From: a virus
Reading direction: 5' to 3' (one strand)
IMG/VR virus record: IMGVR_UViG_3300043438_000807
Coordinates: 1 to 31,005 of that record
DNA: 31,005 nt
In this document: in pieces, positions 9,542 to 30,759 of the stretch
Layout: the number at the start of each line of letters is the position of its first letter
Numbering within the stretch: position 1 is the first letter of the stretch
The notes under the pieces: generated by a model
Database searches by the model: none
Seen by the model: the letters and a program-made list of their open reading frames with translations, nothing else
Told to the model about the DNA's origin: nothing
Position numbers and translations under genes: made by a program

Positions 9542-10285
9542 ATGTTCACATTAACTAGAAACTCACTGATAGTATTCCAAATACTAGCACATCTTTCATT
9601 CTTTGTACTGCTTTATTACGGCACACTTGCACAATGGGCCATTACCGCAGGACTGTATCTTTTCTTTGCCACTATCGGTGGTACAGTAACTTATCACAGA
9701 TTACTGACTCACAGATCCTTTAAAGCACCCAAGTGGTTTGAATATTTTGGAACCGTTGTGGGATCAATTGGTGGTGGTGGTTCTAGCCTAGGTTGGGTAG
9801 CTGTGCATAGAGAACATCACAAGTTTACTGATCTCGAGAAGGATCCCCACAGTCCCTGGTTTAAAGGTTTCTTTAGAGTACAATTTTTAAGTATGTTTGA
9901 AGTACCTAATATTCGTTACGTACCGGACCTGTTGCGTTCTAAATTTCATATGTGGATGCATCATTACTACTGGCTAGTAAATTTAATTTATATCACAATC
10001 ATCTGCCTAATCGATCCGTTTGCAATTTTCTATGCATACTTTGTTCCTACCTTATTTGTATGGCATGCCGGCAGTTTTACCAATACAGTAAATCATTCTC
10101 TAGGATATCAAAATTTTGACACCGGTGATCGTAGCACTAATAATCTAATCACAGGATATCTAATTGCCGGAGAAGGATGGCACAATAATCATCATTCTCG
10201 TGCTAGCGATCCGCAATTTGGTAAGAAGTGGTGGGAGTTTGATCTAGGTTGGCAAGTAATTAAGCTCGTGAAAAAGGACTCCTAG
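9542..10285 (+). CDS. Membrane fatty-acid (acyl-CoA/acyl-lipid delta-9 type) desaturase
   Basis: 247 aa. It has the three histidine boxes of membrane di-iron desaturases: HRLLTH (52-57), HREHH (89-93) and HNNHH (214-218), plus the extra His of NHSLG (185) typical of the stearoyl-CoA/DesC group. Hydrophobic segments at about 8-28, 33-50 and 145-175 would be membrane spans. The enzyme inserts a cis double bond into an acyl chain using O2 and two electrons. At 247 aa it is shorter than most bacterial delta-9 desaturases, but no box is missing. The stop codon lies inside the terminator hairpin at 10271. Altering host membrane fluidity during infection is an inferred role. No strong Shine-Dalgarno is seen. 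Confidence 0.92.
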   Translation: MFTLTRNSLIVFQILAHLSFFVLLYYGTLAQWAITAGLYLFFATIGGTVTYHRLLTHRSFKAPKWFEYFGTVVGSIGGGGSSLGWVAVHREHHKFTDLEKDPHSPWFKGFFRVQFLSMFEVPNIRYVPDLLRSKFHMWMHHYYWLVNLIYITIICLIDPFAIFYAYFVPTLFVWHAGSFTNTVNHSLGYQNFDTGDRSTNNLITGYLIAGEGWHNNHHSRASDPQFGKKWWEFDLGWQVIKLVKKDS

Positions 10286-12092: not shown

Positions 12093-12107
12093 GCTCCGGA
12101 GCGGGGC
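12093..12107 (+). promoter_or_regulatory. 5'-leader hairpin before a strong ribosome-binding site
   Basis: GCTCCG pairs with CGGGGC around a GAG loop (six pairs, one G-U); AATGC (12090-12094) can alternatively pair with GCATT (12111-12115). It is followed by AAGGAG (12122-12127) and the ATG at 12134. Such 5'-terminal stem-loops often protect mRNAs from decay. Confidence 0.4.
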
Positions 12108-12133
12108 TTGGCATTACGATTAAGGAGATTATT

Positions 12134-12517
12134 ATGCCTGGTATTAATAGAATTCACGGTGGAGTTACAGCAGAATTTTTGCTAAGTGCTTACCAACAAA
12201 CTTTCATCAAGATCACTGGTACTAACATTGGTACAGCTGACTCTGTAAACGGTACAACTGGTGCTATCACTGACGGTAACTTTTCTAAGTCCATCCGTGC
12301 TATCCAAACTATCGCTACAACTAGCTACATTGGTCCACGTCACAATGATGGTTTCATCATTATGGTTGACGGTGCTACTGCACAACCAACTGGCCCAGCT
12401 TATGACACAGATGCAACACCAACATTTGCTGAACGTCTAGCAGCAGTGCTAGATGCAGCTACTGGCGTAACAACTACTGTTGCTGTTCCAAGTATGTTAG
12501 CAGCTAACGTATCTTAA
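12134..12517 (+). CDS. Probable abundant virion protein, unknown family
   Basis: 127 aa, beta-rich, with no Cys and few Lys (IKITGTNIGTADSVNG, SYIGPRHNDGFIIMVDG). It is a self-contained unit: late motif, 5'-end hairpin, the strongest ribosome-binding site in the window (AAGGAG), then an intrinsic terminator. Codons are skewed to the GGT/GCT/ACT/ATC set more than in neighbouring genes, as in highly expressed phage genes. I do not recognise the family; a decoration, tail-tube or fibre-associated protein would fit. Confidence 0.65.
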   Translation: MPGINRIHGGVTAEFLLSAYQQTFIKITGTNIGTADSVNGTTGAITDGNFSKSIRAIQTIATTSYIGPRHNDGFIIMVDGATAQPTGPAYDTDATPTFAERLAAVLDAATGVTTTVAVPSMLAANVS

Positions 12518-12539
12518 TTCGTTAAGTTACACAGGACAA

Positions 12540-12564
12540 GGGAGTTTTTACTCCCTTTTCTTTT
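12540..12564 (+). terminator. Intrinsic terminator
   Basis: GGGAG, the loop TTTTTA, CTCCC, then TTTTCTTTT: a five-pair stem with a T-rich tail, 23 bases after the stop of the gene at 12134 and just before the next promoter. Confidence 0.8.
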
Positions 12565-12567
12565 GAC

Positions 12568-12575
12568 TATAAATA
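12568..12575 (+). promoter_or_regulatory. Late promoter, exact TATAAATA
   Basis: A perfect match to the T4 late consensus, 21 bases upstream of the ATG at 12597 and directly after the terminator at 12540. Confidence 0.7.
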
Positions 12576-12596
12576 TCTACATAAAGTAGGTACATA

Positions 12597-13019
12597 ATGC
12601 AAGTAATTGAAATAAAAACTCTAATCGATATCACAGATACAGGAGTACGCAGACCTAGTCAAGGAACACAGCAACAGCTTGATCAATTTAAAAATTGGAT
12701 CACATTAAAACAGTGTGTGGAACTACGCAGTGTGGTAGAGTATGATTATGCCCCCACTGTTGACAGTGTGGACATCAAGGGACTAGGGTTTGGCAGAGTA
12801 TATAAAGGCAAGCATTCTGTATGGACATGGAGACTACGCCCGGACCGTGACGGCATTTATGCAGATTCAACTGGACCAATTAGCAGCTTGCTTGGTGATA
12901 TTGATCAGGTTCCGATTATTCAAAAGTTAACTGAAACTATAAATATAGACAAGCCGGTTTTTGATTTAACAGATCCGGAGTTTAAAAATACAACTATCAA
13001 ATTGCTAGGTAGTGATTAA
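12597..13019 (+). CDS. Conserved-looking phage protein, unknown
   Basis: 140 aa, mixed alpha/beta: VIEIKTLIDITDTGVRRP at the N-terminus, a helix (QQQLDQFKNWITLKQ), then strands (KGLGFGRVYKGKHSVWTWRLRPDRDGIYAD) and a C-terminal 'PVFDLTDPEFKNTTI'. The Trp/Arg/Asp-rich centre suggests a folded domain, but no family is recognised. It is transcribed from the exact TATAAATA upstream. A second TATAAATA lies inside the gene (12938-12945). Confidence 0.6.
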   Translation: MQVIEIKTLIDITDTGVRRPSQGTQQQLDQFKNWITLKQCVELRSVVEYDYAPTVDSVDIKGLGFGRVYKGKHSVWTWRLRPDRDGIYADSTGPISSLLGDIDQVPIIQKLTETINIDKPVFDLTDPEFKNTTIKLLGSD

Positions 13020-17861: not shown

Positions 17862-18583
17862 AAGCTGAAGACGTTATCTACACACCGTTAGATTTGCCCT
17901 GTTGTCCACAAATAGACTTAGACAAACTAACAGCGTGGATGGCCAAAGTTTACCCGCAGAAGAATCTACTGCAACAAACTGGAAACTATCTCATTGCAGG
18001 TATAAATGAAAAAGATGCATTTCCTTGGGAAGTAGTGTGGGCCAAAGCATTAGACTGGCAATCTAATTTTAATAAAGAGTTTCCAGAGTTAGTAAATTAC
18101 ATTGTCAACGATTGGGGAATACCCGAGAATGAAATAGTTGCAATAACTCTGTTGCCAAAACGTGCAAGTGCTATATCAAAAGACTTTTGGCATAGTGATC
18201 TTGACAAGCTAGGACTGCGATTCTATATAAGTTTTGAAAACAGAGAACAGGACAAGTTATTGTTTAAAAAAACATTGACTAGCGAATGTAAAGAAAACAA
18301 CTTATTTAGAACGTTTCAAACAGATACAGGACTTGAACACACTGTACACACTGCTCATATACTAGGTGATCGACAACCTTATTATTTGAATAATTATCTA
18401 GCAGCACACAATGTAAAAAATACTAGTTTAGATCGTCGTATTGCAGTGATTGTTGCAACTTCGTACGAAGTTAACCAACAGAGCAAATTAAAAGATCGAA
18501 TAGATAACCTAATAGTATCTAGTGCTCAAAAATATCATAAACAGGCTATCTTTTGGCACGATTGGTCCGACGCAATTTCTTGA
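17858..18583 (+). CDS. Second 2OG-Fe(II) oxygenase-like protein (aspartyl-hydroxylase-like)
   Basis: 241 aa with a GTG start overlapping the nuclease stop. The catalytic set of a 2OG oxygenase can be read as His112-x-Asp114 (FWHSDLDKLG), distal His184 (LAAHNV) and Arg193/194 (LDRRIAVIVA). The 'WHSD...LRFYISFENRE' context recalls aspartyl/asparaginyl beta-hydroxylase-like phage proteins rather than the type at 16554. The substrate is unknown. It is translationally coupled to the PD-(D/E)XK nuclease, which may mean a shared pathway. Its last 49 bp overlap a convergent gene. The assignment is less certain because similarity outside the motifs is weak. Confidence 0.6.
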   Translation: MKAEDVIYTPLDLPCCPQIDLDKLTAWMAKVYPQKNLLQQTGNYLIAGINEKDAFPWEVVWAKALDWQSNFNKEFPELVNYIVNDWGIPENEIVAITLLPKRASAISKDFWHSDLDKLGLRFYISFENREQDKLLFKKTLTSECKENNLFRTFQTDTGLEHTVHTAHILGDRQPYYLNNYLAAHNVKNTSLDRRIAVIVATSYEVNQQSKLKDRIDNLIVSSAQKYHKQAIFWHDWSDAIS

Positions 18584-19005
18584 CCGTCTTGCCATAATTT
18601 TTTTACCTTGATAAAGTCTAAGTCTGTGTCCACGCAGTCACGCACTCGAAGACTATCAACCTTCCAATCCATAATATCAGAACAGGTTACTAGTTGATCA
18701 GATAGTTCTCGATATTCTTTGGTACAGATAATCTTCTCTAAGAACTCGTATATGTCACTAGAGCCTACACACACAAAACCTTCTAGAGATTGGTCGTTTT
18801 CCACAAAAAACGTCATGGGAAAGACCTCGTTTTCACTAAAATTCGTCAAAATTCTATACCTAATCTGTTGACTAATCGTTAGGTAGTTGTGCAGTAAACT
18901 TTGTTCAGCAGCAGTCAACGATAGTTCTAGAAATTTCGTGGGATTCCTGAAATAACTAGAATTCACCTTGGGACTAAACTTGATTCGGCGTATAAAGTAA
19001 AACAT
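18535..19005 (-). CDS. Protein of unknown function
   Basis: 156 aa from the ATG at 19005, or 158 from the in-frame ATG at 19011; the late motif at 19014 leaves only 2 bases before the latter, so 19005 is favoured. It is basic at the N-terminus (FYFIRRIKFSPKV), helical in the middle (LTAAEQSLLHNYLTISQQIRYRIL), then beta and helical (PMTFFVENDQSLEGFVCVG, IYEFLEKIICTKEYRELSD). Five Cys lie in the second half without a metal-site pattern. No family is recognised. The 3' end overlaps the oxygenase gene by 49 bp in the convergent direction. Confidence 0.55.
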   Translation of the reverse strand: MFYFIRRIKFSPKVNSSYFRNPTKFLELSLTAAEQSLLHNYLTISQQIRYRILTNFSENEVFPMTFFVENDQSLEGFVCVGSSDIYEFLEKIICTKEYRELSDQLVTCSDIMDWKVDSLRVRDCVDTDLDFIKVKKLWQDGQEIASDQSCQKIACL

Positions 19006-19013
19006 TATCATAG

Positions 19014-19021
19014 TATTTATT
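19014..19021 (-). promoter_or_regulatory. Late-type motif AATAAATA (minus strand)
   Basis: It lies 8 bases upstream of the favoured ATG at 19005, again leaving almost no leader. Confidence 0.45.
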
Positions 19022-19049
19022 TTCCAGGACAGTCAAACCTAAACGACAT

Positions 19050-19057
19050 GATAAATA
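19050..19057 (+). promoter_or_regulatory. Late-type motif GATAAATA
   Basis: It lies 22 bases upstream of the tail-spike ATG at 19080, with CTAGGAA as a likely ribosome-binding site between. Confidence 0.5.
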
Positions 19058-19079
19058 CCCTTATACTAGGAATGTTACC

Positions 19080-20711
19080 ATGGCTGTTATTCAGATTTCA
19101 AAAATTCAATTACGTAGAGGGCAAACTGCTGATCAAGGGATGCCACAGTTAGCCAGCGGAGAAATGGGCTGGTCAGTTGATGAGCAAAGGCTGTTTATTG
19201 GCAACGGCAGTGTTGCAGAAGGTGCTCCTGCGGTGGGCAATACTGAAGTTCTTACTGAAGAAAGAATGTTTGATCTGTTGAGCACGGGCAAGTTTACAGC
19301 AACTAACTATACCTATATCGGCCACACTATTACTGCAACTATTACGGGAGTGTTAGGTGCAAACTTTCCAGTAGTGCGTACACTACAAGAAAAACTAGAC
19401 GACTCTGTTAGTATGTTTGACTTTGGCATATCAGACAACACTGATTGCACAGCCAAGTTCCAAAAAGCAATTGATGAAATCTATTTAAGATCCTTTGACA
19501 AGACATTGCCAAAGAGTCGTGTTCCTGTTAGTGTTCCTGCTGGCACTTACTACGTAACTGGTACAGTATACTTGCCACCATATGTAACTCTAGTAGGTGC
19601 AGGTATTGATAAAACTGTGATCCGTTCAATAGGCACAGGCAACACAACTATTTTTGAAACTATTGGAGGCAACAGTACTCCAAGTGTGCGAGTTACAGGA
19701 ACAAATATTGTTTCTCCTACTAATCCGAGACAAATTAAAATTTCCGGAATGACTTTGGAACACACTGGCACCATGTTGACTACCCAGACAACACCTATGA
19801 TTGTGTTAAACTATGCAGCGGACACCACAATCTCTGATATCAAGTTCTTAGGTACATATGTGTCCGGTGCTACTGCAACCACAGTTAATTCTGCAATTGA
19901 ATTAGGATACCTTAGCAGCGACCTGACTATTGAACACTGCCATTTTGAAGATTTATCCTACCCTGTTGTTTCTAATTGGAATGTGAGTGATGTTAAGATT
20001 GTGAACAATACTTTTGATACACTATATCAAGGTATTACATTGGCCAATGCGTTAACTACTTCTAGTGGAAAGAACATTGGACCAATTCGTGTAGATATTC
20101 AAGAAAACAAGTTTATCAACATCGAACGTCAAGGCATCTTTGCAGGTGCAAATACTTCGACTAACAATCAGATCAACAGTGAGAATAATCACTTTATCAA
20201 CGTTGGTAATAATGGCAACGGTGATGCTGACCCTGCACACCCAATCATTACTTTTGCCAGCCACGGCAACAGTTCAACTAATGACAATTTTGAGCGTCTG
20301 TGGTACATGCAGACCACAGTATTGGATACTCCTCAATATGAGATTATTGAGGGTACTGCCCAGGTTAGATTAAAGTTCACAGACAGACAATCTTTACCGG
20401 AAAGTACCAGTACTCAAACTTTATTGAAGATTCCTTACAACTCCACAGTTACCAGTGTGACTATCGATTACACACTGGAAAAAGCTGGATTGGCAAGAAA
20501 AGGCACATTGAGCGTAGTAGCCAGCGATGTGGGCGTTTCTTATAAAGACTCATATGCTGTAGCGGGCAGCAGTGATGGTGATGTGGTATTCTCCGCTGCC
20601 TTTTTGGATCACGGACCGGTTGATCGCAACGATACATTGACTGTACAATATACTAATCCTGTTGCTGCTGGCACAGGTACTATAATTTTTAACGTAGCGT
20701 ATTACCGATAA
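19080..20711 (+). CDS. Tail-spike/fibre protein with pectate-lyase-type beta-helix
   Basis: 543 aa. Residues 1-45 (KIQLRRGQTADQG, PQLASGEMGWSVDEQRLFIGNG) are the same type of fibre N-terminal domain as at 1553. Residues ~110-185 (SMFDFGISDNTDCTAKFQKA, VSVPAGTYYVTGTVYLPPYV, LVGAGIDKTVIRS) are the entry of the pectate-lyase superfamily beta-helix common in phage tail spikes with depolymerase activity. Residues ~200-380 continue with coils of Asn/Thr/Ile-rich strands (LTIEHCHFEDL, VKIVNNTFDTL). The C-terminal ~120 residues form a separate beta domain. Catalytic residues cannot be fixed by eye, so an enzymatic role against surface polysaccharide is possible but unproven. Confidence 0.8.
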   Translation: MAVIQISKIQLRRGQTADQGMPQLASGEMGWSVDEQRLFIGNGSVAEGAPAVGNTEVLTEERMFDLLSTGKFTATNYTYIGHTITATITGVLGANFPVVRTLQEKLDDSVSMFDFGISDNTDCTAKFQKAIDEIYLRSFDKTLPKSRVPVSVPAGTYYVTGTVYLPPYVTLVGAGIDKTVIRSIGTGNTTIFETIGGNSTPSVRVTGTNIVSPTNPRQIKISGMTLEHTGTMLTTQTTPMIVLNYAADTTISDIKFLGTYVSGATATTVNSAIELGYLSSDLTIEHCHFEDLSYPVVSNWNVSDVKIVNNTFDTLYQGITLANALTTSSGKNIGPIRVDIQENKFINIERQGIFAGANTSTNNQINSENNHFINVGNNGNGDADPAHPIITFASHGNSSTNDNFERLWYMQTTVLDTPQYEIIEGTAQVRLKFTDRQSLPESTSTQTLLKIPYNSTVTSVTIDYTLEKAGLARKGTLSVVASDVGVSYKDSYAVAGSSDGDVVFSAAFLDHGPVDRNDTLTVQYTNPVAAGTGTIIFNVAYYR

Positions 20712-20714
20712 TTT

Positions 20715-21149
20715 ATGTTTAACCTATCTCCGGATGAGAGATTGAGTGCCTGGGCCGATCACAGGCATAGTCTCGACTCTTCTGAAAATCCTTTAGAAAC
20801 ACTAATCGAGTTTTGGGATCACCCTCCATATGTTCCATTCAACAGGAACGTAGATCCTTACAATCAAAGAAGCTGGCCTACACCTTGGGAAATCATTATT
20901 GAAAACAAATACGATGATTTTACCAAAGTATTAATGATAGCCTGGACATTAAAGTTAACTGCCACGTTTAAAGACAGTAAGGTAGAGATAAAAACATATA
21001 CAGATGCACACAGATCTAGACAATATAATCTAGTGTTCATCGATGATGAGTTTGTTATTAACTACACAGATAATGATATAAACAAACCTAGCGATATTCC
21101 TGAGTCATTTCAACTAGAAAATCTAATTGAAGTACAGAGGCCTAGGTAA
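20715..21149 (+). CDS. Conserved-looking phage protein, unknown
   Basis: 144 aa, 3 bp after the tail-spike stop, with no visible ribosome-binding site. It is rich in Trp, Asp and aromatic residues: SPDERLSAWADHRHSLD, 'DPYNQRSWPTPWEIIIENKYDDF', then a helix (KVLMIAWTLKLTATF) and strands with an acidic end. The 'WPTPWE.I..N.YDDF.K.L.IAWTL.LT' pattern recalls a protein widespread in T4-like phages of aquatic bacteria, from memory; function unknown. Its TAA stop is part of the late motif before nrdA. Confidence 0.6.
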   Translation: MFNLSPDERLSAWADHRHSLDSSENPLETLIEFWDHPPYVPFNRNVDPYNQRSWPTPWEIIIENKYDDFTKVLMIAWTLKLTATFKDSKVEIKTYTDAHRSRQYNLVFIDDEFVINYTDNDINKPSDIPESFQLENLIEVQRPR

Positions 21150-21152
21150 ATA
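21145..21152 (+). promoter_or_regulatory. Late-type motif GGTAAATA containing the upstream stop codon
   Basis: The TAA at 21147-21149 ends the gene at 20715. A ~60-base leader follows, with AGGTGG as ribosome-binding site before nrdA. It is the only promoter-like site visible for the nrdA-nrdB operon; an early promoter was not found here. Confidence 0.45.
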
Positions 21153-21217
21153 TCACTCTAAGTAGTAAAAAGAAAAAGCGGGCTCCCGGGCCACAAAATA
21201 AAAAGAACAGGTGGACA

Positions 21218-23563
21218 ATGACTATTCAAGTAGTTAAACGTAGTGGACAACGAGTTCCACTAGATATTTCAAAAATACAAAGACAAGTAGCATTTAGCTG
21301 CCACGGAATAGACGGAGTTAGTCCGTCTATGATCGAGATCAAAGCACAGTTAGAATTTCATGATGGCATGACCACTAATACTATCGACGAATTGCTGTTA
21401 AAGGCAATGGTTGATCTAATTGACGAAGAAGAAAATCCCGAGATTAATAATGTTAACTATCAGTACGTAGCAGGCCGCCAACGTCTAAGTATGTTGCGTA
21501 AAGAAGTATACGGAGCATACGAGCCGCCTAAACTATTCAGCATTGTTAAGAAGAATGTTGAACTAGGCATGTACACTAGCGAACTGCTAGACTGGTACAC
21601 AGAAGACGAATGGAACATTATTGACCTATTCATCGATCATGCAAGAGACGAGCAATATACATTTGCTGCTATTGCACAGCTAGCAGAAAAGTATCTAGTA
21701 CAGAATCGTGCCACTAATACAATATACGAAACTCCGCAGGTACGTTATGCAGTTGCAGCCGCTACGGCATTTCATGCAGAGTCTAAAGATGCTAGACTAA
21801 AGTGGGTAAAAGAATACTACGAGTGTGCTCGAGACGGACACTTTACACTGGCCACTCCTGTTCTCGCCGGTCTAGGTACGACCACCAAACAATTTAGCAG
21901 TTGTGTGCTGATCAGCACTGACGATACACTGGACAGTATCTTTGCAAGCGGCGAAATGATGGCCAAATATGCTTCAAAACGAGCCGGTATCGGTCTAGAA
22001 ATTGGCAGAATCAGACCTTTAGGTGCCCCAATTCGTAACGGTGAGATCAAGCATACAGGAATGATTCCTTTCTTGAAGAAATGGTTCGCAGACCTCCGCA
22101 GTTGCAGCCAGGGTGGTATCCGTAATGCATCATGCACAGTAACATATCCTATTTGGCACGCTCAGTTCGAAGATCTTATTGTGCTAAAGAACAATCAAGG
22201 TACTGAAGAAAATCGTGTACGACAAATGGATTACTCAGTTGTGGTTAACAAGATGTTTTGGAATCGTTATAAGAATGGTGAAATGATGACATTGTTTGAT
22301 CCAGCAGAAGTTCCGGATCTTTACGAAGCATACTATCGCAACTCGGCAGAGTTTGAAACATTGTATTTGAAATACGAGCAAGACAAGACAAAGAAAAAGA
22401 AAGTTGTATCGGCAGATGCGATATTCAAAGCTGGAATACTTAAAGAGCGTACTGATACTGGTCGTATCTATCTTGTTAACATTGACAACGTTATCAACCA
22501 AGGCTCGTTTGATACAACAGTTGATCCAATTTATCAATCCAATCTATGCCAAGAGATACTTTTACCTACCCGTCCTTTCCAGAGAATTGAAGATCCAGAG
22601 GGACGAATTGCTCTTTGCACTCTTGGCAGCATCAACTGGGGAGCATTCCGTAACCCACAAGAGATGAAAAAAGCCTGTCGTGTGTTAGTACGTAGCCTAA
22701 GTAATTTGTTGAACTATCAAGACTTCTTAAGCATACAGAGCAAGCTGGCTAACACAGACTTTGAACCGTTAGGTGTTGGCATTACTAACTTGGCCTATTG
22801 GCATGCCCGTAAAGGATACAAGTACGGTGAAGCAGAAGCACTTGCAGAAGTTAAACGTTGGATGGAACACCAGGCATACTACCTTACCGAAACTAGTGTC
22901 GAGCTTGCCCAAGAACGTGGGCCATGCGGACGTAGTCAGCACACTTATTACGGTAAGGGAGTATTTCCTTGGGAACGCCGCAATCCCGGAGTTAACGAAC
23001 TAACAGATTTCACTCCTAGCCTAGATTGGGAACCATTGCGAGCACGTATGATCAAATACGGTATTCGTAATGCTACACTAATGGCAGTGGCACCAGTTGA
23101 GTCTAGTTCAGTAGTATTAAACAGTACTAATGGAATTGAGATGCCAATGGAATTAATTTCTGTTAAAGAATCTAAAGCTGGATCGTTTGTACAGGTAGTA
23201 CCAGAATATCGTCGCCTAAAGAATCGTTATCAGATGATGTGGGATCAGACCAACTGCGTTGATTATCTGAAGACAGCCGCAGTATTAGCAGCTTACATTG
23301 ATCAATCATTGAGTACTAACACATTCTATAATCCTGCACACTTTGCTAACGGTAAGGTACCTGCTACACTAATTGCCAAGAACTTGATGTTGGCATACAG
23401 GTGGGGCATTAAGACCATTTATTATAGCCTAATTAACAAGGTAGGTGCTAAGACTAACGTCACTGCAACTACACAGGTTAATGGTATAAACGGATTTGCA
23501 ATTAATGCGGCAGACAACGTGATCATTTATGATGACGCCGATTGCGAGGCATGTAAGTTATAA
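21218..23563 (+). CDS. nrdA: Ribonucleoside-diphosphate reductase, class Ia large subunit
   Basis: 781 aa (E. coli NrdA 761). Residues ~1-85 are an ATP-cone allosteric domain ([20 protein letters not shown]). Active-site residues are all present: Cys229 (FSSCVL) and Cys467 ([10 protein letters not shown]) as the redox pair, Cys444 (NLCQEI) as the thiyl radical site with Asn442 and Glu446, and the C-terminal Cys776/Cys779 (CEACKL) that passes electrons from glutaredoxin or thioredoxin. [17 protein letters not shown] is the phosphate-binding segment and TIYYSL holds the radical-transfer tyrosines. It reduces NDPs to dNDPs with NrdB. It is the first gene of a six-gene operon; the stop overlaps the A-type carrier start (TAATG). 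A glutaredoxin at 26619 could be its reductant. Confidence 0.97.
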
Positions 23564-23892
23564 TGGATCAAGTAACAATATCAGAATCGGCTGTTATTAA
23601 AATCACAGACCTACTAGCAGAGGAGAATAATCCTAAGTTAAAACTTAGGACATTTGTCCAAGGTGGCGGATGTTCTGGATTTCAGTACGGATTTACATTT
23701 GACGAAGAACAACACGAAGACGATTTTGTTGTAGAAAAACAAGGTGTAAAAATATTGATTGATGCAATGAGTATGCAGTATCTTAGTGGTGCTGTAATTG
23801 ATTACAAAGAAGATTTGCAAGGTAGTCAATTCAGTATTCAAAATCCTAATGCACAATCAACCTGTGGTTGTGGGAGCAGTTTTTCAGTATGA
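23563..23892 (+). CDS. iscA: A-type iron-sulfur carrier (IscA/ErpA/HesB family)
   Basis: 109 aa, the usual family length. The three conserved cysteines are present: Cys37 ([11 protein letters not shown]) and Cys101/Cys103 (STCGCGSSF). A-type carriers take Fe-S clusters or iron from a scaffold and deliver them to apo-proteins in the cytoplasm. Whether it is closer to IscA, ErpA or SufA cannot be told. The start overlaps the nrdA stop, and the end overlaps the SOD start (ATGA), so it is made in step with NrdA. An 8-9-bp perfect hairpin lies in codons 23-29. Phage A-type proteins are known in cyanophages; placement inside an nrd operon is unusual. Confidence 0.93.
23631..23650 (+). repeat. Perfect inverted repeat inside the A-type carrier gene
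   Basis: TCCTAAGT and ACTTAGGA flank TAAA, an 8-bp perfect stem (9 with a 2-base loop), about 70 bases into the gene. In RNA it would form a stable hairpin in the middle of the nrd operon; it could affect coupling between nrdA and downstream genes or be fortuitous. Confidence 0.6.
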
Positions 23893-24437
23893 CCTATAGT
23901 TTTATTAGACATGTTCTACAAGAAGGCAAACCAGAAAAGTTGGAAATTATAAATCTACCTTATGATACCAATGACCTTGAACCTGTGATCTCAGAAGACA
24001 CCATCAATTACCATTATGGCAAATTAGCAAAAATTTATGCTGAACGGTACAACAAAAATGAAGGTGATTCAGTTTTTAATGAAGCTGGTGTATTCTTACA
24101 CAACATTTTGTTTCAGCAGTATCAAGCACCAACTAACTCCAATAAACCTATTGGTAGTATCTTAGAATTTATTATCAAACATTATAAAGACTTTGACAAA
24201 TTTAAAGAATCCTTTGCTAATGAGGCAATGGCTATTCAAGGCAGTGGTTGGGTCTATCTTGCCAAAGACGGTAAAATTAAAACTATCGTCAATCACCAAA
24301 TTAAAAAAGATATTGTGTTGTTAATTGATTGGTGGGAACATGCGTGGGCATTGGACTACAAACATGACAAAAAGAAATACTTAGATAATCAGTGGAAGAT
24401 TATCAACTGGGAGAAAATAAATGGCATACTCAGATAA
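23889..24437 (+). CDS. sodB: Iron/manganese superoxide dismutase
   Basis: 182 aa from the ATG at 23889, which overlaps the previous stop; the frame extends upstream, but only into the carrier gene. Metal ligands of Fe/Mn SODs are all there: His42 (NYHYGK), His71 (FLHNIL), Asp147 and His151 ([11 protein letters not shown]). '[13 protein letters not shown]' is the family's GSGW segment. The second His of the usual first-helix HYGKHH pattern is Leu here. Sequence cannot tell Fe from Mn; the Trp-rich DWWEHAW does not settle it. It converts superoxide to H2O2 and O2 and may shield the iron clusters or the NrdB radical encoded by its operon partners. It overlaps iscU by 17 bp. Confidence 0.92.
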
Positions 24438-24795
24438 AGTTGTTGATCATTACGAAAACCCACGTAATGTAGGTAAGTTTGAAATTGACGACACAGTTGG
24501 CACAGGTATGGTCGGAGCACCTGCTTGTGGAGATGTGATGAAGTTACAGATAAAGGTAGATGAAGATGGTATTATTAGAGATGCTCGTTTCAAGACATAT
24601 GGATGCGGTTCAGCAATCGCCAGTTCGTCGTTGGTTACAGAGTGGGTTAAGGGTATGCATATTGATGATGCTGTTAACCTTAAAAACTCCCAAATCGCCG
24701 AAGAACTAGCACTACCGCCTGTCAAGATACATTGCTCAATTCTAGCAGAAGATGCTATCAAAGCCGCAGTAGAAGATTATAGAAAGAAACATTAA
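24421..24795 (+). CDS. iscU: Iron-sulfur cluster scaffold IscU
   Basis: 124 aa, full family length (~128). It has the N-terminal VVDHYENPRNVG, Asp38 next to Cys36 (PACGDVM), Cys62 (YGCGSAIASSS), and His104-Cys105 in KIHCSILAEDAIKAA, i.e. all three cluster cysteines, the conserved Asp and the His. HscA-type chaperones recognise an LPPVK motif, which is present here (98-102). It should therefore assemble [2Fe-2S] clusters with sulfur from a host cysteine desulfurase; no iscS or hscAB is in the window. GGAG lies 7 bases before the ATG, and the start lies within the SOD gene. The stop overlaps the next start (TAATG). Confidence 0.97.
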   Translation: MAYSDKVVDHYENPRNVGKFEIDDTVGTGMVGAPACGDVMKLQIKVDEDGIIRDARFKTYGCGSAIASSSLVTEWVKGMHIDDAVNLKNSQIAEELALPPVKIHCSILAEDAIKAAVEDYRKKH

Positions 24796-25445
24796 TGTTA
24801 GAAACAATCTGTGACATAATGGTAGACGCTTATAAGCGTAACTGGATTACTAGCCGAGATGGTAACGTGAGTATTCGTCATCACGACCGTGATCACTTTT
24901 ACATCACACCAAGCGGTGTACGTAAACAAACACTACAACCTGACCAGTTCAAGAAGATTGGCATTGAGAAAGGATTCTGGGATCAGCCTCCTCGACTGTA
25001 TCATGCAACTAAAGAGTTAGACTATACTGAAATTAGTGCTAACCTGAAGCCTAGTGGGGAACTACCATTGCACTTTGGTTTGCAAAAAGAAATGGGACAA
25101 CACACAGGCGACGTTCGTGTAGTTGTACACGTTCACCCAACTTATTGCATTGCGGCAATGCATGCCGGTATTGATTTGAGTACTGTGAGTGCAGCCTTTC
25201 CAGAACTCAATCGTTATACCAAGGTAGCACCTAATGTAGGCGATGTGCCTCCTATTAGCCAAGAACTTGCTGACCAGTGCCATAAGATGTTACAATTAGA
25301 CGACGCTGGAAATATTGCCTACGACATCGTGGGTATAAAAGGACATGGAGTAGTAGCTATTGATACAACACCGTGGCGTGCCTATGAGCACATAGAAAGA
25401 TTAGAACATATTTGCAAGATCGTACTTGCATCAGGAAAATATTAA
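24795..25445 (+). CDS. Class II aldolase/adducin-family protein
   Basis: 216 aa, the length of L-fuculose-phosphate aldolase or ribulose-5-phosphate 4-epimerase. Zinc ligands His112, His114 (VVHVHPTY) and His184 (GHGVV), and catalytic Glu89 (PSGELPLHFG), are present, as are the N-terminal 'SRDGNVSIR' and 'ITPSGVRK' phosphate-binding segments. It would cleave or epimerise a phosphorylated sugar, or be a related dehydratase (MtnB-like). The substrate cannot be read from sequence. Its stop and start overlaps with iscU and nrdB make it a full member of the nrd operon; a link to pentose-phosphate flux toward nucleotides is inference. Confidence 0.88.
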   Translation: MLETICDIMVDAYKRNWITSRDGNVSIRHHDRDHFYITPSGVRKQTLQPDQFKKIGIEKGFWDQPPRLYHATKELDYTEISANLKPSGELPLHFGLQKEMGQHTGDVRVVVHVHPTYCIAAMHAGIDLSTVSAAFPELNRYTKVAPNVGDVPPISQELADQCHKMLQLDDAGNIAYDIVGIKGHGVVAIDTTPWRAYEHIERLEHICKIVLASGKY

Positions 25446-26545
25446 TGAGCAAAGAACAATACAACTTATCAAAACAAACAAACTATCTAAAACGTACAAT
25501 GTTTTTGGATCCTGCCGGTCCGGTAACAGTACAGCGTTTCGAAGAAGTCAAATATCCTAAGATTGCTAAGTATGAAGAACTGGCACGTGGATTCTTTTGG
25601 GTACCAGAAGAAATCAGTCTTACCAAAGACAAGATAGATCACAAGGAAGCTAGTGATGCAGTCAAGCATATCTTTACCAGCAACTTGTTAAGACAAACGG
25701 CATTGGACAGTATTCAAGGTCGTGCTCCTAATCAAGTATTCCAACCCGTAATTAGCTTGCCTGAACTCGAAGCACTTGTGAGTAACTGGAGTTTCTTTGA
25801 AACTAACATTCACAGTAAGAGCTACAGTCATATTATTAGGAACGTATATGGAGTACCTAAAGAAGAGTTTAACAAGATTCACGACACGGCTGAAATTGTT
25901 GGTATGGCTGCTAACATTGGTCGTTACTATGAGGATCTACATCAGCTTAACTGTCGTAAAGAGTTGGGAGAAGTCGTTGATACAATGCTTCACAAGCGAG
26001 CCATTTGGATGGCATTACACGCAAGCTATGCATTGGAGGCTCTACGTTTCATGGTGAGCTTTGCTACCAGTCTGGCCATGGTCGAAAACAAGATCTATAT
26101 CGGCAACGGCAATATTATCAGCTTGATCCTGCAAGACGAGTTGTTACACACAGAATGGACTGCTTGGCTTATCAACAATGTAACCAAAGATGATCCAGAC
26201 TTTGTTAAACTAGAAGAAGAATGTGCAGACGAAGTATATTCACTATACGTAGAAGTTATTCGCGAAGAAAAGGAATGGGCTGAGTTCTTATTTAAGAAAG
26301 GTGTAGTTATCGGATTGAACGCCAACATATTGAAAGACTTTGTAGATTTTACAGCGTTTACTAGACTAAAAGAAATTGGAATCAAGTACCTAGGAGAGCA
26401 TCCTAAATTTAGTCCTATCCCTTGGTTTAACAAACATGTAAACATCAACAAGAAGCAGACTGCACTACAGGAAAATGAATCAACTAACTATGTCATCGGC
26501 GTGATGTCAGACACAGTTGAGTACGAAGAACTACCTGATCTTTAA
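25445..26545 (+). CDS. nrdB: Ribonucleoside-diphosphate reductase, class Ia small subunit
   Basis: 366 aa from the ATG at 25445 (AGGAAAA ribosome-binding site; overlaps the aldolase stop). Di-iron ligands Asp88 (LDSIQGRAP), Glu119 and His123 (FETNIHSKSY), the radical Tyr127, and later Glu and His residues (ALEALRFMVSF, LLHTEWT) are recognisable. It generates the tyrosyl radical for NrdA. One oddity: Glu119 and His123 are four apart (ETNIH), whereas E. coli and T4 have ExxH (ETIH), so there is a one-residue insertion in the ligand helix. The C-terminus (VEYEELPDL) is the acidic NrdA-binding tail. An intrinsic terminator follows directly. Confidence 0.95.
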   Translation: MSKEQYNLSKQTNYLKRTMFLDPAGPVTVQRFEEVKYPKIAKYEELARGFFWVPEEISLTKDKIDHKEASDAVKHIFTSNLLRQTALDSIQGRAPNQVFQPVISLPELEALVSNWSFFETNIHSKSYSHIIRNVYGVPKEEFNKIHDTAEIVGMAANIGRYYEDLHQLNCRKELGEVVDTMLHKRAIWMALHASYALEALRFMVSFATSLAMVENKIYIGNGNIISLILQDELLHTEWTAWLINNVTKDDPDFVKLEEECADEVYSLYVEVIREEKEWAEFLFKKGVVIGLNANILKDFVDFTAFTRLKEIGIKYLGEHPKFSPIPWFNKHVNINKKQTALQENESTNYVIGVMSDTVEYEELPDL

Positions 26546-26559
26546 TTTCACCAAAACAC

Positions 26560-26587
26560 AAAAAGGCCTTGCTATGAGGCCTTTTTT
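26560..26587 (+). terminator. Intrinsic terminator of the nrdA-nrdB operon
   Basis: AAAAA, GGCCT, a 7-base loop, AGGCC, TTTTTT: a five-GC-rich-pair stem, extendable by A-T pairs, 15 bases after the nrdB stop. Confidence 0.88.
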
Positions 26588-26618
26588 CGTCTAAACTTAA
26601 CACAAAGGAATTATAACT

Positions 26619-26861
26619 ATGAAAGTAACCGTATGGAGTAAAACACCCTGTCCGATTTGTGATCAAGCTAAAGCTCTGTTAAAGCAGCGTGGCATTGACT
26701 ATGAAGAACGCAACATCACTGAAGGCACATGGACCAAAGAACAGCTATTAGAAGCTGTGCCCAATGCTAGAACAGTTCCACAGATTTTTATCAATGAACA
26801 ATTAGTAGGCGGATTTAATGAGCTCAGAAATCATTTCCAAAATCAAGCCAGTGGAGTATGA
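26619..26861 (+). CDS. Glutaredoxin
   Basis: 80 aa, a typical small glutaredoxin. Active site Cys11-Pro-Ile-Cys14 (TPCPICDQAK), TVPQIFI with the cis-Pro, and VGGFNEL as the glutathione-binding GG segment. It would pass electrons from glutathione to disulfides, here most likely NrdA's C-terminal Cys pair, the role of phage NrdC/glutaredoxin. The ribosome-binding site is AAAGGAA. It lies just after the nrd operon terminator and overlaps the next gene by 44 bp. Confidence 0.92.
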   Translation: MKVTVWSKTPCPICDQAKALLKQRGIDYEERNITEGTWTKEQLLEAVPNARTVPQIFINEQLVGGFNELRNHFQNQASGV

Positions 26862-27294
26862 GTGGAAAGAGGATGATCTAACAATGAATGTTGGATTCTC
26901 AGCACAAGAAATAGATGATCTCTTAAAAACGTCCATGTCAAGTTATACCACAGGGGCTCAAGGATCGAGTCAAAATTCTTATACTATATCTACAGGTGCT
27001 GGTGCTAACGGCTCGTGGAATTCTAGTCCCTATGTTTTTACTACTAACAATACAAACATAGGAACTATTTCAAATGCAGGACTACATGTTACTAGCGATG
27101 CGGAGTTCGATGGAGACATCAAATGGAAAGGTCGTAGTCTAGGAGACCTGCTAACTACTATTGAAAAGAGGTTAGCCATCCTAACTCCGGATCCTGCTAA
27201 GTTAGCACACTACGAGTCATTACAAAAAGCATATCAACACTACAAGACATTAGAAGCATTGTGTGAAACACCGTCAAAGAAAGAAGATAAATGA
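26818..27294 (+). CDS. Phage structural/assembly protein with S74-chaperone-like start
   Basis: 158 aa from the ATG at 26818 (44 bp inside the glutaredoxin gene), or 136 aa from the ATG at 26884 after AGAGGA. Residues 5-35 (IISKIKPVEYEWKED, NVGFSAQEIDDLL) match the end of intramolecular chaperone (peptidase S74) domains of phage fibres. Residues 100-140 (DAEFDGDIKWKGRSLGDLLTTIEKRLAIL) match a segment common in marine phage structural proteins. The middle is Ser/Thr/Gly/Asn-rich. The first match argues for the earlier start despite the overlap. A role in fibre or baseplate assembly is inferred. It is ATGA-coupled to thyX. Confidence 0.6.
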   Translation: MSSEIISKIKPVEYEWKEDDLTMNVGFSAQEIDDLLKTSMSSYTTGAQGSSQNSYTISTGAGANGSWNSSPYVFTTNNTNIGTISNAGLHVTSDAEFDGDIKWKGRSLGDLLTTIEKRLAILTPDPAKLAHYESLQKAYQHYKTLEALCETPSKKEDK

Positions 27295-27962
27295 AAGTTA
27301 AATTAATTTCGTCAAGCAAGCCCAGTCGCGAAATGTACGACGAAGGTCTGATGGATGCACAAGAGCTGATTGCGTTCTGTGCTCGGGTTAGTAACCCCTC
27401 TAACCAATTCAACATGGATACTGCTGACAAGCTGATCCGTTATTTGATCAAGCATAAACATTGGTCGCCACTTGAAATGGTATCAGCCTGTTTAGAAATC
27501 GAAACTACCCGTGACATTGCTCGACAGATCCTGCGTCACCGTAGTTTCAGCTTCCAGGAGTTTAGTCAACGCTATGCAGATCCAACCAAAGACCTTGACT
27601 TTGTTATCCGTGAAGCACGACTACAGGATACAAAGAATCGCCAGAACAGTGTTACCACTGATGATCATGAATTAATGGCTGAATGGAATCGCAGACAACA
27701 TCAGGTTATCAACCTTGTCAAAGAAAATTATGCATGGGCCATTGAAAACGGCATTGCTAAAGAGCAGGCCCGTGCTATTCTACCAGAAGGCAACACAGTC
27801 AGTCGCTTGTATATGAACGGCACACTACGCTCATGGATTCACTTTATTGATCTACGTAGCGGCAATGGTACCCAGCTAGAGCACATGGAAGTTGCACGTG
27901 AGTGTGCTCGAGTAATTGCTGAAATCTTTCCAATGGCTACTGAGTATGTCCAGCCCCAGTGA
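27291..27962 (+). CDS. thyX: Flavin-dependent thymidylate synthase
   Basis: 223 aa. The ThyX motif RHRSFSFQEFSQRY (82-95) matches RHRxxSxxxxSxRY exactly, and ARAILPEGNTVSRLYM plus SWIHFIDLR supply further FAD/dUMP-binding parts. It methylates dUMP to dTMP with methylene-tetrahydrofolate, FAD and NADPH, so it does not produce dihydrofolate. With dCMP deaminase (30223) and NrdAB it completes dTTP supply. The start overlaps the previous stop; the end overlaps the next gene by 17 bp. Confidence 0.97.
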   Translation: MKVKLISSSKPSREMYDEGLMDAQELIAFCARVSNPSNQFNMDTADKLIRYLIKHKHWSPLEMVSACLEIETTRDIARQILRHRSFSFQEFSQRYADPTKDLDFVIREARLQDTKNRQNSVTTDDHELMAEWNRRQHQVINLVKENYAWAIENGIAKEQARAILPEGNTVSRLYMNGTLRSWIHFIDLRSGNGTQLEHMEVARECARVIAEIFPMATEYVQPQ

Positions 27963-29401: not shown

Positions 29402-30223
29402 ATGCCATACGTACAAGGTGCAAGAGTTCACGGAGTAGTACACATTGCTGATGTGTATCGTAGCCCCAATGTTTTTACAAATAATGTTGCAACAGCATTA
29501 TGGTTAGAAGCTGGAACCAGTGCTGGCTTTGTTGGTATTGCTATTAATGCACCGCCATCGTTAGATCCAGCAGAGGCTGCTGCGGCAGTTGACCTTACCA
29601 CTGCCTATACCAGCAATCCTGATAGTTTTTATAATCCAGCGGCTGCGACTGACGGTGTAAAAGCTAACTTTCCCGGTACTCCTGAAGATACTACTACGTC
29701 AACTGGTATTACAGATGTTGCTACTGCTTCAGGTATTGTTCCTTTCTTAGCAGCTACTCTAGAAGAAGCAGGTCGAGGTATGTGGAGAGAAAGTGGCCAG
29801 GCTGGCGGGACCAGTAATAAAAATATCTTAAAGATATGGACAGCACTGGGGTTCTCTGGCAGTCCCTGGAATACCGACCAAACTGCATGGTGTATGGGAT
29901 TTGTTAACTTTGCATTAAAATGCTCAGGTAAACAATATGTGCAAACAGCCAGTGCAAAAGCTATTAAGCAAAATCCAGAGAGATGGGGTGCTACACAAGT
30001 TACACCTGCAACAGCACAGCCGGGTGACATTGTACTTTGGAAGTATAGTCATGTGAACTTTATCTATACCTTGAATGGTGGCAAAGCTACATTTGTTGGT
30101 GGCAATCAAACTCCTACGTCCGGCAAGAATAATAACCCCAGTGACGGAGATGTTACCATCAGTTACGCTGGTGGATCGCCATTAACTAATAACAACATTG
30201 ACAGTATCTGGCGAGTAGCCTAA
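29402..30223 (+). CDS. CHAP/NlpC-P60-like cell-wall hydrolase, probably virion- or lysis-associated
   Basis: 273 aa. The N-terminus (VQGARVHGVVHIADVYRSPNVFTNN) looks like a short beta module of phage baseplate or structural proteins. After a low-complexity Ala/Thr linker, residues ~112-273 form a papain-like peptidoglycan amidase domain: Cys164 (TAWCMGFVNFAL), 'AQPGDIVLW', His217 (YSHVNFIY) and Asn235 (GGNQTP) as the catalytic triad. It would cleave peptide stems of peptidoglycan, either during DNA entry or at lysis. AAGGAATT precedes the ATG. It is coupled (TAATG) to the dCMP deaminase. No signal peptide. Confidence 0.8.
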   Translation: MPYVQGARVHGVVHIADVYRSPNVFTNNVATALWLEAGTSAGFVGIAINAPPSLDPAEAAAAVDLTTAYTSNPDSFYNPAAATDGVKANFPGTPEDTTTSTGITDVATASGIVPFLAATLEEAGRGMWRESGQAGGTSNKNILKIWTALGFSGSPWNTDQTAWCMGFVNFALKCSGKQYVQTASAKAIKQNPERWGATQVTPATAQPGDIVLWKYSHVNFIYTLNGGKATFVGGNQTPTSGKNNNPSDGDVTISYAGGSPLTNNNIDSIWRVA

Positions 30224-30759
30224 TGAAACAAAAATTTATCGATATGTATATGGATTGGGCAGAACGCACTGCTCAACTAAGCCACGCTCGTAGACTACAA
30301 GTCGGTGCTGTGATTGTTAAAGACGATAGTGTTATCAGCTACGGCTATAACGGCATGCCTTCTGGGTGGGACAACGATTGTGAAGACAAAGACTATATGA
30401 GTCGCGATGCGGGTGGCTGGTTAGACCCTGAAGAAATTTACGAAAGATGGCCTTTTGAAGAAACAGTAGTAGTCGCAAACGACAATGAAAGTTTTGAAAC
30501 ATCTATGCGTTATCGACTTAAAACTAAACCAGAGGTCCTTCATGCTGAATCCAATGCAATTGCTAAGTTGGCCAAGTCTATCAACAGTGGTAACGGTGCT
30601 GGTATTTTCATTACTCATGCTCCGTGTATCGATTGTGCAAAACTCATATATCAAAGCGGTATCAGTAGTGTATACTATCGCAGTAGCTATCGTGATATTT
30701 CGGGGATCGAGTTTTTAGAAAAATCCGGAGTAAAAGTAGAACAGGTTGATAATAAATAA
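30223..30759 (+). CDS. dCMP deaminase
   Basis: 178 aa. The zinc-deaminase motifs are His107-Ala-Glu109 (VLHAESNAI) and Pro134-Cys135-Ile-Asp-Cys138 (HAPCIDCAKLI). The N-terminal 'HARRLQVGAVIVKDD..ISYGYNGMPSG' is that of dCMP/ComEB deaminases, and the inserted segment with Cys53 resembles the structural-zinc region of T4 dCMP deaminase. It makes dUMP for ThyX. It is coupled to the upstream hydrolase gene (TAATG). Its TAA stop overlaps an AATAAATA motif. Confidence 0.93.
   Translation: MKQKFIDMYMDWAERTAQLSHARRLQVGAVIVKDDSVISYGYNGMPSGWDNDCEDKDYMSRDAGGWLDPEEIYERWPFEETVVVANDNESFETSMRYRLKTKPEVLHAESNAIAKLAKSINSGNGAGIFITHAPCIDCAKLIYQSGISSVYYRSSYRDISGIEFLEKSGVKVEQVDNK
30751..30758 (+). promoter_or_regulatory. 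Late-type motif AATAAATA at the dCMP deaminase stop
   Basis: It overlaps the TAA stop at 30757-30759. No protein gene follows before the structured RNA, so it may give a late copy of that RNA or be incidental. Confidence 0.35.

Follow-up and report, generated by a model that had tools for sequence, protein, structure and literature searches.

In bacteriophage T4, the gap between nrdA and nrdB, which encode the large and small subunits of ribonucleotide reductase (RNR), holds the endonuclease gene mobE. This gene has a UAAUGA overlap and lacks its own promoter, and nrdB is preceded by a middle promoter located after mobE (according to passages of PMC2988022). A passage of a 2013 paper also remarks that the RNR genes nrdA and nrdB of phages are interspersed with other genes (PMC3653736). 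Here we analyze a stretch of viral DNA of 31,005 nucleotides (IMG/VR record IMGVR_UViG_3300043438_000807), which we will term the window, and in which four genes lie between nrdA and nrdB: an A-type iron-sulfur (Fe-S) carrier, an Fe/Mn superoxide dismutase (SOD), the scaffold protein IscU, and a class II aldolase. As in T4, the gap is occupied and has a UAAUG junction, but the T4 insert is a homing endonuclease with a middle promoter before nrdB, while the insert here consists of metabolic or redox genes. The operon is real and well built, but instead of a fixed cassette it represents one of the states that a modular cargo slot can take. (The window corresponds, with 0 mismatches, to bases 1-31005 of the 228,849-bp phage contig IMGVR_UViG_3300034117_001294.)

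Parts of this gene content have been described in other settings. Marine T4-like phages encode IscU and A-type carriers along with many radical S-adenosylmethionine (radical-SAM) genes (12 in one genome), and the idea that phage Fe-S assembly proteins serve viral Fe-S enzymes has already been published (passages of Nishimura et al., 2017, PMC5332604). The likeness to the window's phage lies in the IscU, A-type carrier, and radical-SAM genes; the difference is that "superoxide" and "ribonucleotide" occur 0 times each in the main text of that paper, so there is no SOD or RNR setting. Relative to the bacterial Isc system (iscSUA) and ErpA, the phage IscU and ErpA pass the family cut-offs, but neither an IscS-family gene nor Fer2 (2Fe-2S ferredoxin) was found in any of 15 large phage records (0/15 for each; hscA and hscB were not sought). 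So, IscS of the host would be needed, as would host sulfur donors and reductants more generally. Finally, some phage isolates (Pseudomonas phage MIJ3 and its kin, and Vibrio phage 2.275) encode Fe/Mn SODs that are 41% and 36% identical to the window's SOD (tblastn) and have the same conserved residues, but their neighbors are clpS and rpsU genes, and the 6-kb flanks that were displayed have no nrd or Fe-S gene annotated. An SOD between nrdA and nrdB is named in no title or abstract opening that we found in the open-licence PMC literature, and the link between SOD and nrd is the new, testable part of the finding.

The genes of the operon, and the palindrome that follows it, are:

21218..23563, + strand: nrdA, class Ia ribonucleotide reductase large subunit, 781 aa (NF006578, 819.4 bits against a cut-off of 813); the left wall of the slot
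23563..23892, + strand: ErpA-type A-type Fe-S carrier, 109 aa (NF010147, the NCBIfam ErpA equivalog, 174.7 bits against a cut-off of 117)
23889..24437, + strand: Fe/Mn superoxide dismutase, phage type, 182 aa (PF00081 and PF02777, both over cut-off)
24421..24795, + strand: IscU scaffold, 124 aa (TIGR01999, 215.3 against a cut-off of 192.4)
24795..25445, + strand: class II aldolase/adducin-family protein, 216 aa (PF00596, 96.6 against 22.2)
25445..26545, + strand: nrdB, class Ia-like small subunit, 366 aa, with radical Tyr127 (PF00268, 126.3 against 33.6); the right wall of the slot
26560..26586, strand undefined: palindrome with a T tail, like an intrinsic terminator (reported on the minus strand by the terminator scan and read on the plus strand by eye)

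Open reading frames (ORFs) and family matches bear out this order, which was proposed in a preliminary description of the window. A recheck of the letters also upheld its statement that all five junctions overlap: there is a TAATG between nrdA and erpA (23561-23565), an ATGA between erpA and the SOD gene (23889-23892), a 17-bp overlap between the SOD gene and iscU (24421-24437), and a TAATG both between iscU and the aldolase gene (24793-24797) and between the aldolase gene and nrdB (25443-25447). (The start of the SOD gene is taken as the ATG at 23889; the ORF caller prefers an upstream TTG at 23868.) The same description put a promoter-like site before nrdA and a clear terminator after nrdB. 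A sigma-70 scan finds no promoter just upstream of nrdA, and it yields 9 sites in 20650-27350 as compared to 18.1 expected from shuffled sequences; there may still be a phage-specific promoter before nrdA. As to the terminator, the palindrome and its flanking T's are present; the terminator scan gives it for the minus strand alone, but by eye it also looks like a terminator on the plus strand.

To place the operon among its relatives, we scanned IMG/VR with the SOD, NrdB, IscU, and aldolase proteins as queries and kept 80 loci per query (out of at least 409 relatives for the SOD and at least 80 for each of the other three). The nrdA-nrdB gap in these relatives is a variable cargo slot. With NrdB as the query, 58 complete gaps remained after deduplication, of which 24 were empty and 34 had cargo: unknown ORFs in 24, aldolase in 8, IscU in 7, A-type carriers in 6 (ErpA-like and IscA-like carriers are counted alike throughout), and SOD in 2. 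These two SOD-bearing gaps belong to the window's own phage and to locus L145. If loci from all queries are pooled, which weights the counts by the queries used, there are 163 unique gaps, 31 empty and 132 with cargo (aldolase in 76, unknown ORFs in 60, SOD in 52, IscU in 25, and A-type carriers in 20). By ORF calling, rows of cargo reach six genes running between nrdA and nrdB. Among 428 gap junctions, 108 were at −4, 75 were at −1, and 49 were far, although these numbers are biased towards overlaps because the start nearest to an overlap was used. Whether or not SOD is a true partner of NrdB, the gap is a defined docking site for the swapping of metabolic genes in uncultured phages, and it is useful for finding new phage metabolic genes.

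The range of cargo is wide. One gap holds a SegE-type GIY-YIG gene that is over its cut-off (L272), and HNH-like cargo was seen by eye in two others (L139, which has no Pfam match, and L052, which was not scanned). A 2-oxoglutarate-Fe oxygenase and an Asp/Asn hydroxylase are found in the gaps of L251 and L106, an FAD oxidoreductase in that of L141, and a nuclease in that of L310. We also observed an alternative oxidase, a diiron quinol oxidase, in a phage gap beside aldolase and other cargo (L290 7265-7894; PF01786, 249.5 bits); an isocitrate lyase (L131 1014-2216); and a serine hydroxymethyltransferase (L271 9291-10436). In two loci, nrdA itself appears as two overlapping ORFs (L054 5735-7998 and L271 5700-7998), which could be split genes or sequencing errors.

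The SOD is tied to the slot more closely than IscU or the aldolase. For the SOD query, each of the 80 loci kept, including 3 from the phage of the window itself, has nrd genes next to it or close by. In 73 of them nrdA and nrdB are on both sides, and the other 7 are cut by the end of the contig but are beside or near nrd (the class of incomplete loci near nrd mixes such cuts with loci downstream of nrdB). After deduplication, 56/56 SOD loci were within 1.5 kb of nrd, and SOD was directly after nrdA in 36/45 gaps. When 94 SODs are placed on a tree, the 53 from gaps require 2 changes of label, as compared to a mean of 30.9 for shuffled labels, which gives the slot lineage the appearance of an old group that is almost closed. 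(This is a quick tree in which 37 of 91 inner branches are open, and it includes every fourth locus of two other sets of SODs.) In contrast, only 8 of the 80 loci for IscU were in a gap; 33 had nrd genes in the flank without being enclosed by them, and 39 had none in the available flank (up to 8 kb). For the 80 aldolase loci, 52 were in a gap, 2 were at its edge, 7 were near, and 19 had no nrd gene in the available flank.

Within the slot, SOD is patchy with respect to NrdB. On a tree of NrdB from the 163 gaps, many of whose branches lack support, the presence of SOD takes 22 changes, as compared to a shuffled mean of 44.4 (lowest 38 in 200 shuffles); the corresponding numbers are 29 against 54.0 for aldolase, 19 against 23.7 for IscU, and 14 against 19.2 for A-type carriers. 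The identity of each SOD to that of the window is uncorrelated with the identity of the accompanying NrdB (rho 0.02, n = 52, one of which is the window's own record). For example, L005 has 83% identity for SOD and 72% for NrdB, and L015 has 78% and 91%. As SOD is patchy on the NrdB tree and the two identities are unrelated, SOD has probably been exchanged between phages inside the slot or lost, and the sequences suggest that it may move from phage to phage within the slot.

The proteins themselves appear to be intact. The preliminary description held that the metal ligands and catalytic residues that could be checked in the carrier, the SOD, and IscU are all intact, and this was confirmed. In the SOD (with residues counted without the initial Met; the searches used 23892-24434), the metal ligands H41, H70, D146, and H150 as well as the active-site Tyr Y49 and His H135 (the Gln/His position) are invariant in 13 phage SODs. 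A structural model of the SOD, also without the initial Met, has a mean pLDDT (predicted local distance difference test) of 91.0, and its best match in the PDB is 8avm, a mutant of Bacteroides fragilis SodFM2 (TM 0.83, 31% identity). With both Pfam domains, the four metal ligands, and an SOD fold in the model, it is a predicted Fe/Mn SOD. It scores far below the NCBIfam equivalogs (85.4 for SodB, with a cut-off of 348, and 36.3 for SodA, with a cut-off of 363), and can therefore be assigned to the Fe/Mn SODs but to none of their named subtypes. By eye, IscU has Cys37, Asp39, Cys63, His105, and Cys106 as well as the LPPVK motif, and the carrier has the three ErpA cysteines; we assume that these residues and the motif play their usual roles in these proteins. 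In NrdB, all six ligands of the diiron site are kept along with the radical Tyr in 164/164 rows, window copies included, and the window's NrdB scores 302.5 against the class Ia beta equivalog NF006576, which is under the cut-off of 346. Purifying selection is evident for IscU, ErpA, aldolase, and NrdB wherever synonymous divergence (dS) was measurable, with ratios of nonsynonymous to synonymous divergence (dN/dS) of 0.03-0.18 (9 of 18 pairs).

The aldolase falls in the class II superfamily but reaches no named model. All 18 named models listed were under their cut-offs (the best was MtnB, at 52.1 against 137.05), and the structure prediction, with a pLDDT of 36.6, was not used. H112, H114, and H184, presumably the histidines of the metal site, are invariant in 18 copies, and 17 phage copies are 76-96% identical to the window's aldolase. 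One stretch of this otherwise highly conserved protein varies in both length and sequence (residues ~57-78; window 24966-25028). A role in salvaging 5'-deoxyadenosine, a by-product of radical-SAM enzymes, would be no more than a guess: the nucleosidase PF01048 was found in 0/15 large records and there was no equivalog match (MtnA and MtnK were not searched).

How do SOD and the Fe-S genes relate away from nrd? Across 47 large records, SOD is present in 20, in the gap in 11 and elsewhere in 9. (Of the 11 records with SOD in the gap, 10 came via the SOD query; the other 37 records have SOD in 10, and in the gap once.) Of the 9 SODs outside the gap, two of whose stretches are identical, 7 adjoin IscU and/or an A-type carrier and 2 are alone, so the pairing of Fe-S genes with SOD does not need nrd. 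Two other lineages of phage SODs lie mostly away from nrd, and 51 of their 100 SODs adjoin IscU or A-type genes. Inside the gap, Fe-S genes accompany SOD in 15/47 cases, as compared to 7/56 gaps without SOD (P = 0.03), and aldolase is found in 24/47 as compared to 7/56 (P = 3e-5), where the two sets of gaps come from different queries and the P values ignore kinship. SOD gaps without any Fe-S gene are nevertheless the commoner kind (32/47; within 1.5 kb, 37/56). Over 46 records, IscU was found in 14 of 19 with SOD and in 15 of 27 without it (P = 0.24), and tests of independent pairs of SOD against IscU, A-type carriers, or aldolase had just 6 supported pairs and were without power.

SOD also occurs with genes of the SUF system. 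In L517 (7378-13146), SOD is followed by SufB and SufC, both of which exceed their cut-offs, a SufS-like desulfurase that does not, a protein that resembles a SufE-SufT fusion (12098-12790), an A-type carrier, and a tail protein. SUF genes together with a broken SOD are also present on a contig that was binned to Methylophilaceae (L350 6073-12207). SufB was found on 40 viral contigs, and SOD adjoins it in 1 of the 40. On a contig from a metagenome-assembled genome of Polaromonas (L349 3-673), a phage-like SOD fragment lies directly 5' of an A-type carrier, which is followed, by eye, by an AnmK-like gene. The pairings of SOD with IscU and with SUF suggest that in some phages the assembly of Fe-S clusters is coupled to their protection.

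We propose, with about an even chance of being right, that the slot carries cargo with two jobs: SOD for NrdB, and IscU and ErpA for Fe-S enzymes, with aldolase apart from both. The nrdA-nrdB junction would be a docking slot for cargo that lacks promoters of its own and whose genes follow one another head to tail, in many cases with overlapping stop and start codons. Given this arrangement, the cargo is probably made with the reductase during the synthesis of deoxynucleoside triphosphates (dNTPs). SOD would keep superoxide off NrdB while oxygen builds or rebuilds the diferric-tyrosyl radical, and it would also shield other iron enzymes that are made at that time. IscU and ErpA would raise the supply of Fe-S clusters, together with the cysteine desulfurase and chaperones of the host; the clients would be the radical-SAM and Rieske proteins of the phage (104-119 kb on the same contig) and Fe-S proteins of the host. 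Aldolase would be a separate cargo for carbon metabolism. SOD inhibits the assembly of class Id enzymes and class Ib enzymes use superoxide (passages of PMC8463856), and the class Ia radical is made with oxygen, so an SOD in this operon suits an oxygen-activated enzyme. From the arrangement of the genes we infer that SOD is co-expressed with RNR and that it shields or assists NrdB, which suggests that phages may protect an oxygen-activated reductase while they copy DNA.

A stronger form of this proposal is that the slot holds a dedicated RNR SOD, a lineage that resides in the nrdA-nrdB gap, is produced in concert with the two subunits, and is a radical-maturation partner of class Ia NrdB. We consider this unlikely. 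A 1986 paper reportedly found that SOD takes part when the tyrosyl radical of E. coli RNR is formed in vitro, and a 1996 paper is said to have found that superoxide inactivates E. coli RNR. A dedicated RNR SOD, if true, would mirror that earlier in-vitro result at the level of natural gene arrangement. If SOD is a true partner of NrdB, then control of superoxide would be tied to the supply of dNTPs in infection, and the role of SOD in forming the class Ia radical could be tested with a co-resident pair.

Several observations weigh against the two-job proposal. SOD is absent from 56/58 of the NrdB-query gaps, so this type of NrdB does not require it. The link of SOD with the slot may reflect one original capture that was inherited with its flanks, rather than repeated selection, and selection on SOD is unmeasured because dS was saturated in 4/4 pairs. 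In the two SOD lineages outside the slot, SOD occurs mostly without nrd: in one (65 SODs), an A-type carrier is adjacent in 18/65, nrd in 0/65, and neither in 47/65, and in the other (35 SODs), IscU or A-type genes are adjacent in 33/35 and nrd in 5/35. As T4 has a middle promoter between mobE and nrdB, one shared transcript is not certain. Also, radical-SAM genes do not track IscU or SOD. In the test of 46 records, whose counts include matches below the family cut-off and whose contigs are incomplete, the density of radical-SAM genes did not differ between 29 records with IscU and 17 without (P = 0.89) or with the presence of SOD (P = 0.43), and any radical-SAM gene was present in 23/29 records with IscU and 12/17 without (P = 0.72).

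The preliminary description explained the operon as a phage "radical-enzyme maintenance" cassette. Its tie between SOD and nrd stands (80/80 loci, 56/56 within 1.5 kb, and 2 changes against 30.9), but the fixed unit does not (SOD in 2/58 gaps, IscU in 7/58, A-type carriers in 6/58, and IscU in the gap at 8/80 of its own loci), and the gap also holds genes for which iron offers no rationale, such as isocitrate lyase, serine hydroxymethyltransferase, a nuclease, and endonuclease-like genes. That description had said that the functional link would fail if these genes were scattered at random in related genomes; this is largely what we see for IscU and partly what we see for aldolase, but not for the slot SOD. 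Class Ia NrdB depends on iron and oxygen, which along with the gene order and the overlaps is what speaks for a version in which all four inserted genes act on NrdB. We consider that version very improbable: besides the scarcity of IscU in the gap, aldolase has no apparent role for NrdB, the center of NrdB is diiron-oxo and not an Fe-S cluster, and as Fer2 was not found in 15/15 large records, the known YfaE route would be the host's.

Two other explanations do not give RNR a special role. SOD and Fe-S assembly could form one transferable module against oxidative stress, for Fe-S proteins of host or phage, with the nrd gap as merely one landing site. We regard this as possible but doubtful. 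SOD away from nrd does sit beside IscU or A-type carriers in 7/9 records and in 33/35 and 18/65 of the two other lineages, and it precedes SUF genes in L517 and, in broken form, in L350. On the other hand, the SOD of the nrd slot is commoner without an Fe-S gene, 47/65 of the second lineage has neither nrd nor an Fe-S gene as a neighbor, SOD adjoins SufB at just 1/40 viral SufB loci, and the co-occurrence of SOD and IscU over 46 records is not beyond chance. Alternatively, the gap could be a neutral hotspot, where homing endonucleases and recombination bring in arbitrary genes that are kept for good expression and tolerant junctions, so that neighbors have nothing to do with RNR. The mixed and variable cargo, including endonuclease-like genes (L272 and the HNH-like genes of L139 and L052), fits this explanation, as do the 24/58 empty gaps, mobE in T4 (passages of PMC2988022), and the earlier remark that RNR genes are interspersed with others (a passage of PMC3653736). 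We find it rather unlikely because the slot lineage of SOD is nearly confined to the slot and because SOD gaps are richer in Fe-S genes (15/47 as compared to 7/56) and aldolase (24/47 as compared to 7/56), with the caveat that these sets come from different queries and kinship is ignored.

There are potential clients for the second job of the two-job proposal. The window's phage has 7 radical-SAM matches, 6 of them over cut-off. Radical-SAM matches were found in 15/15 large records (over cut-off in 14) and in 20/31 further records (over cut-off in 17), and all 18 records of at least 100 kb among the 46 have at least one. Separately, we observed that the contig of the window's phage has, at 104-122 kb (L332 and L333), five radical-SAM proteins (at 105-119 kb), a Rieske-type protein, and an acyl carrier protein. 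Two of the five clustered radical-SAM proteins have B12-binding matches under cut-off, and there are desaturase-like ORFs nearby by eye. This region looks like a biosynthetic cluster. We also considered radical-SAM load as the cause of the presence of IscU or SOD and rejected it, as there was no association over the 46 records.

The surroundings of the operon in the window, which encode an exonuclease, proteins resembling those of tail fibres and baseplates, glutaredoxin, ThyX, and dCMP deaminase, are consistent with a large tailed phage. No near DNA match to bases 18000-27500 was found among 50,697 phage records. The T4 capsid gene gp23 was over cut-off in 17/27 related large records; it was not found in the window's own 229-kb record, which is possibly a fragment. 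Downstream of the operon lie:

26619..26861, + strand: glutaredoxin, the next gene 3' of the operon
27291..27962, + strand: thyX, flavin-dependent thymidylate synthase
30223..30759, + strand: dCMP deaminase

Among the relatives, glutaredoxin is commonly the next gene after nrdB. Elsewhere in the window, the ORF at 397-1539 has a Hint/intein-like stretch by eye (CLIAGT...) and no PHROG or Pfam match at E 0.001. There is also a fatty acid desaturase (PF00487) at 9542-10285, which we take to be a further iron enzyme.

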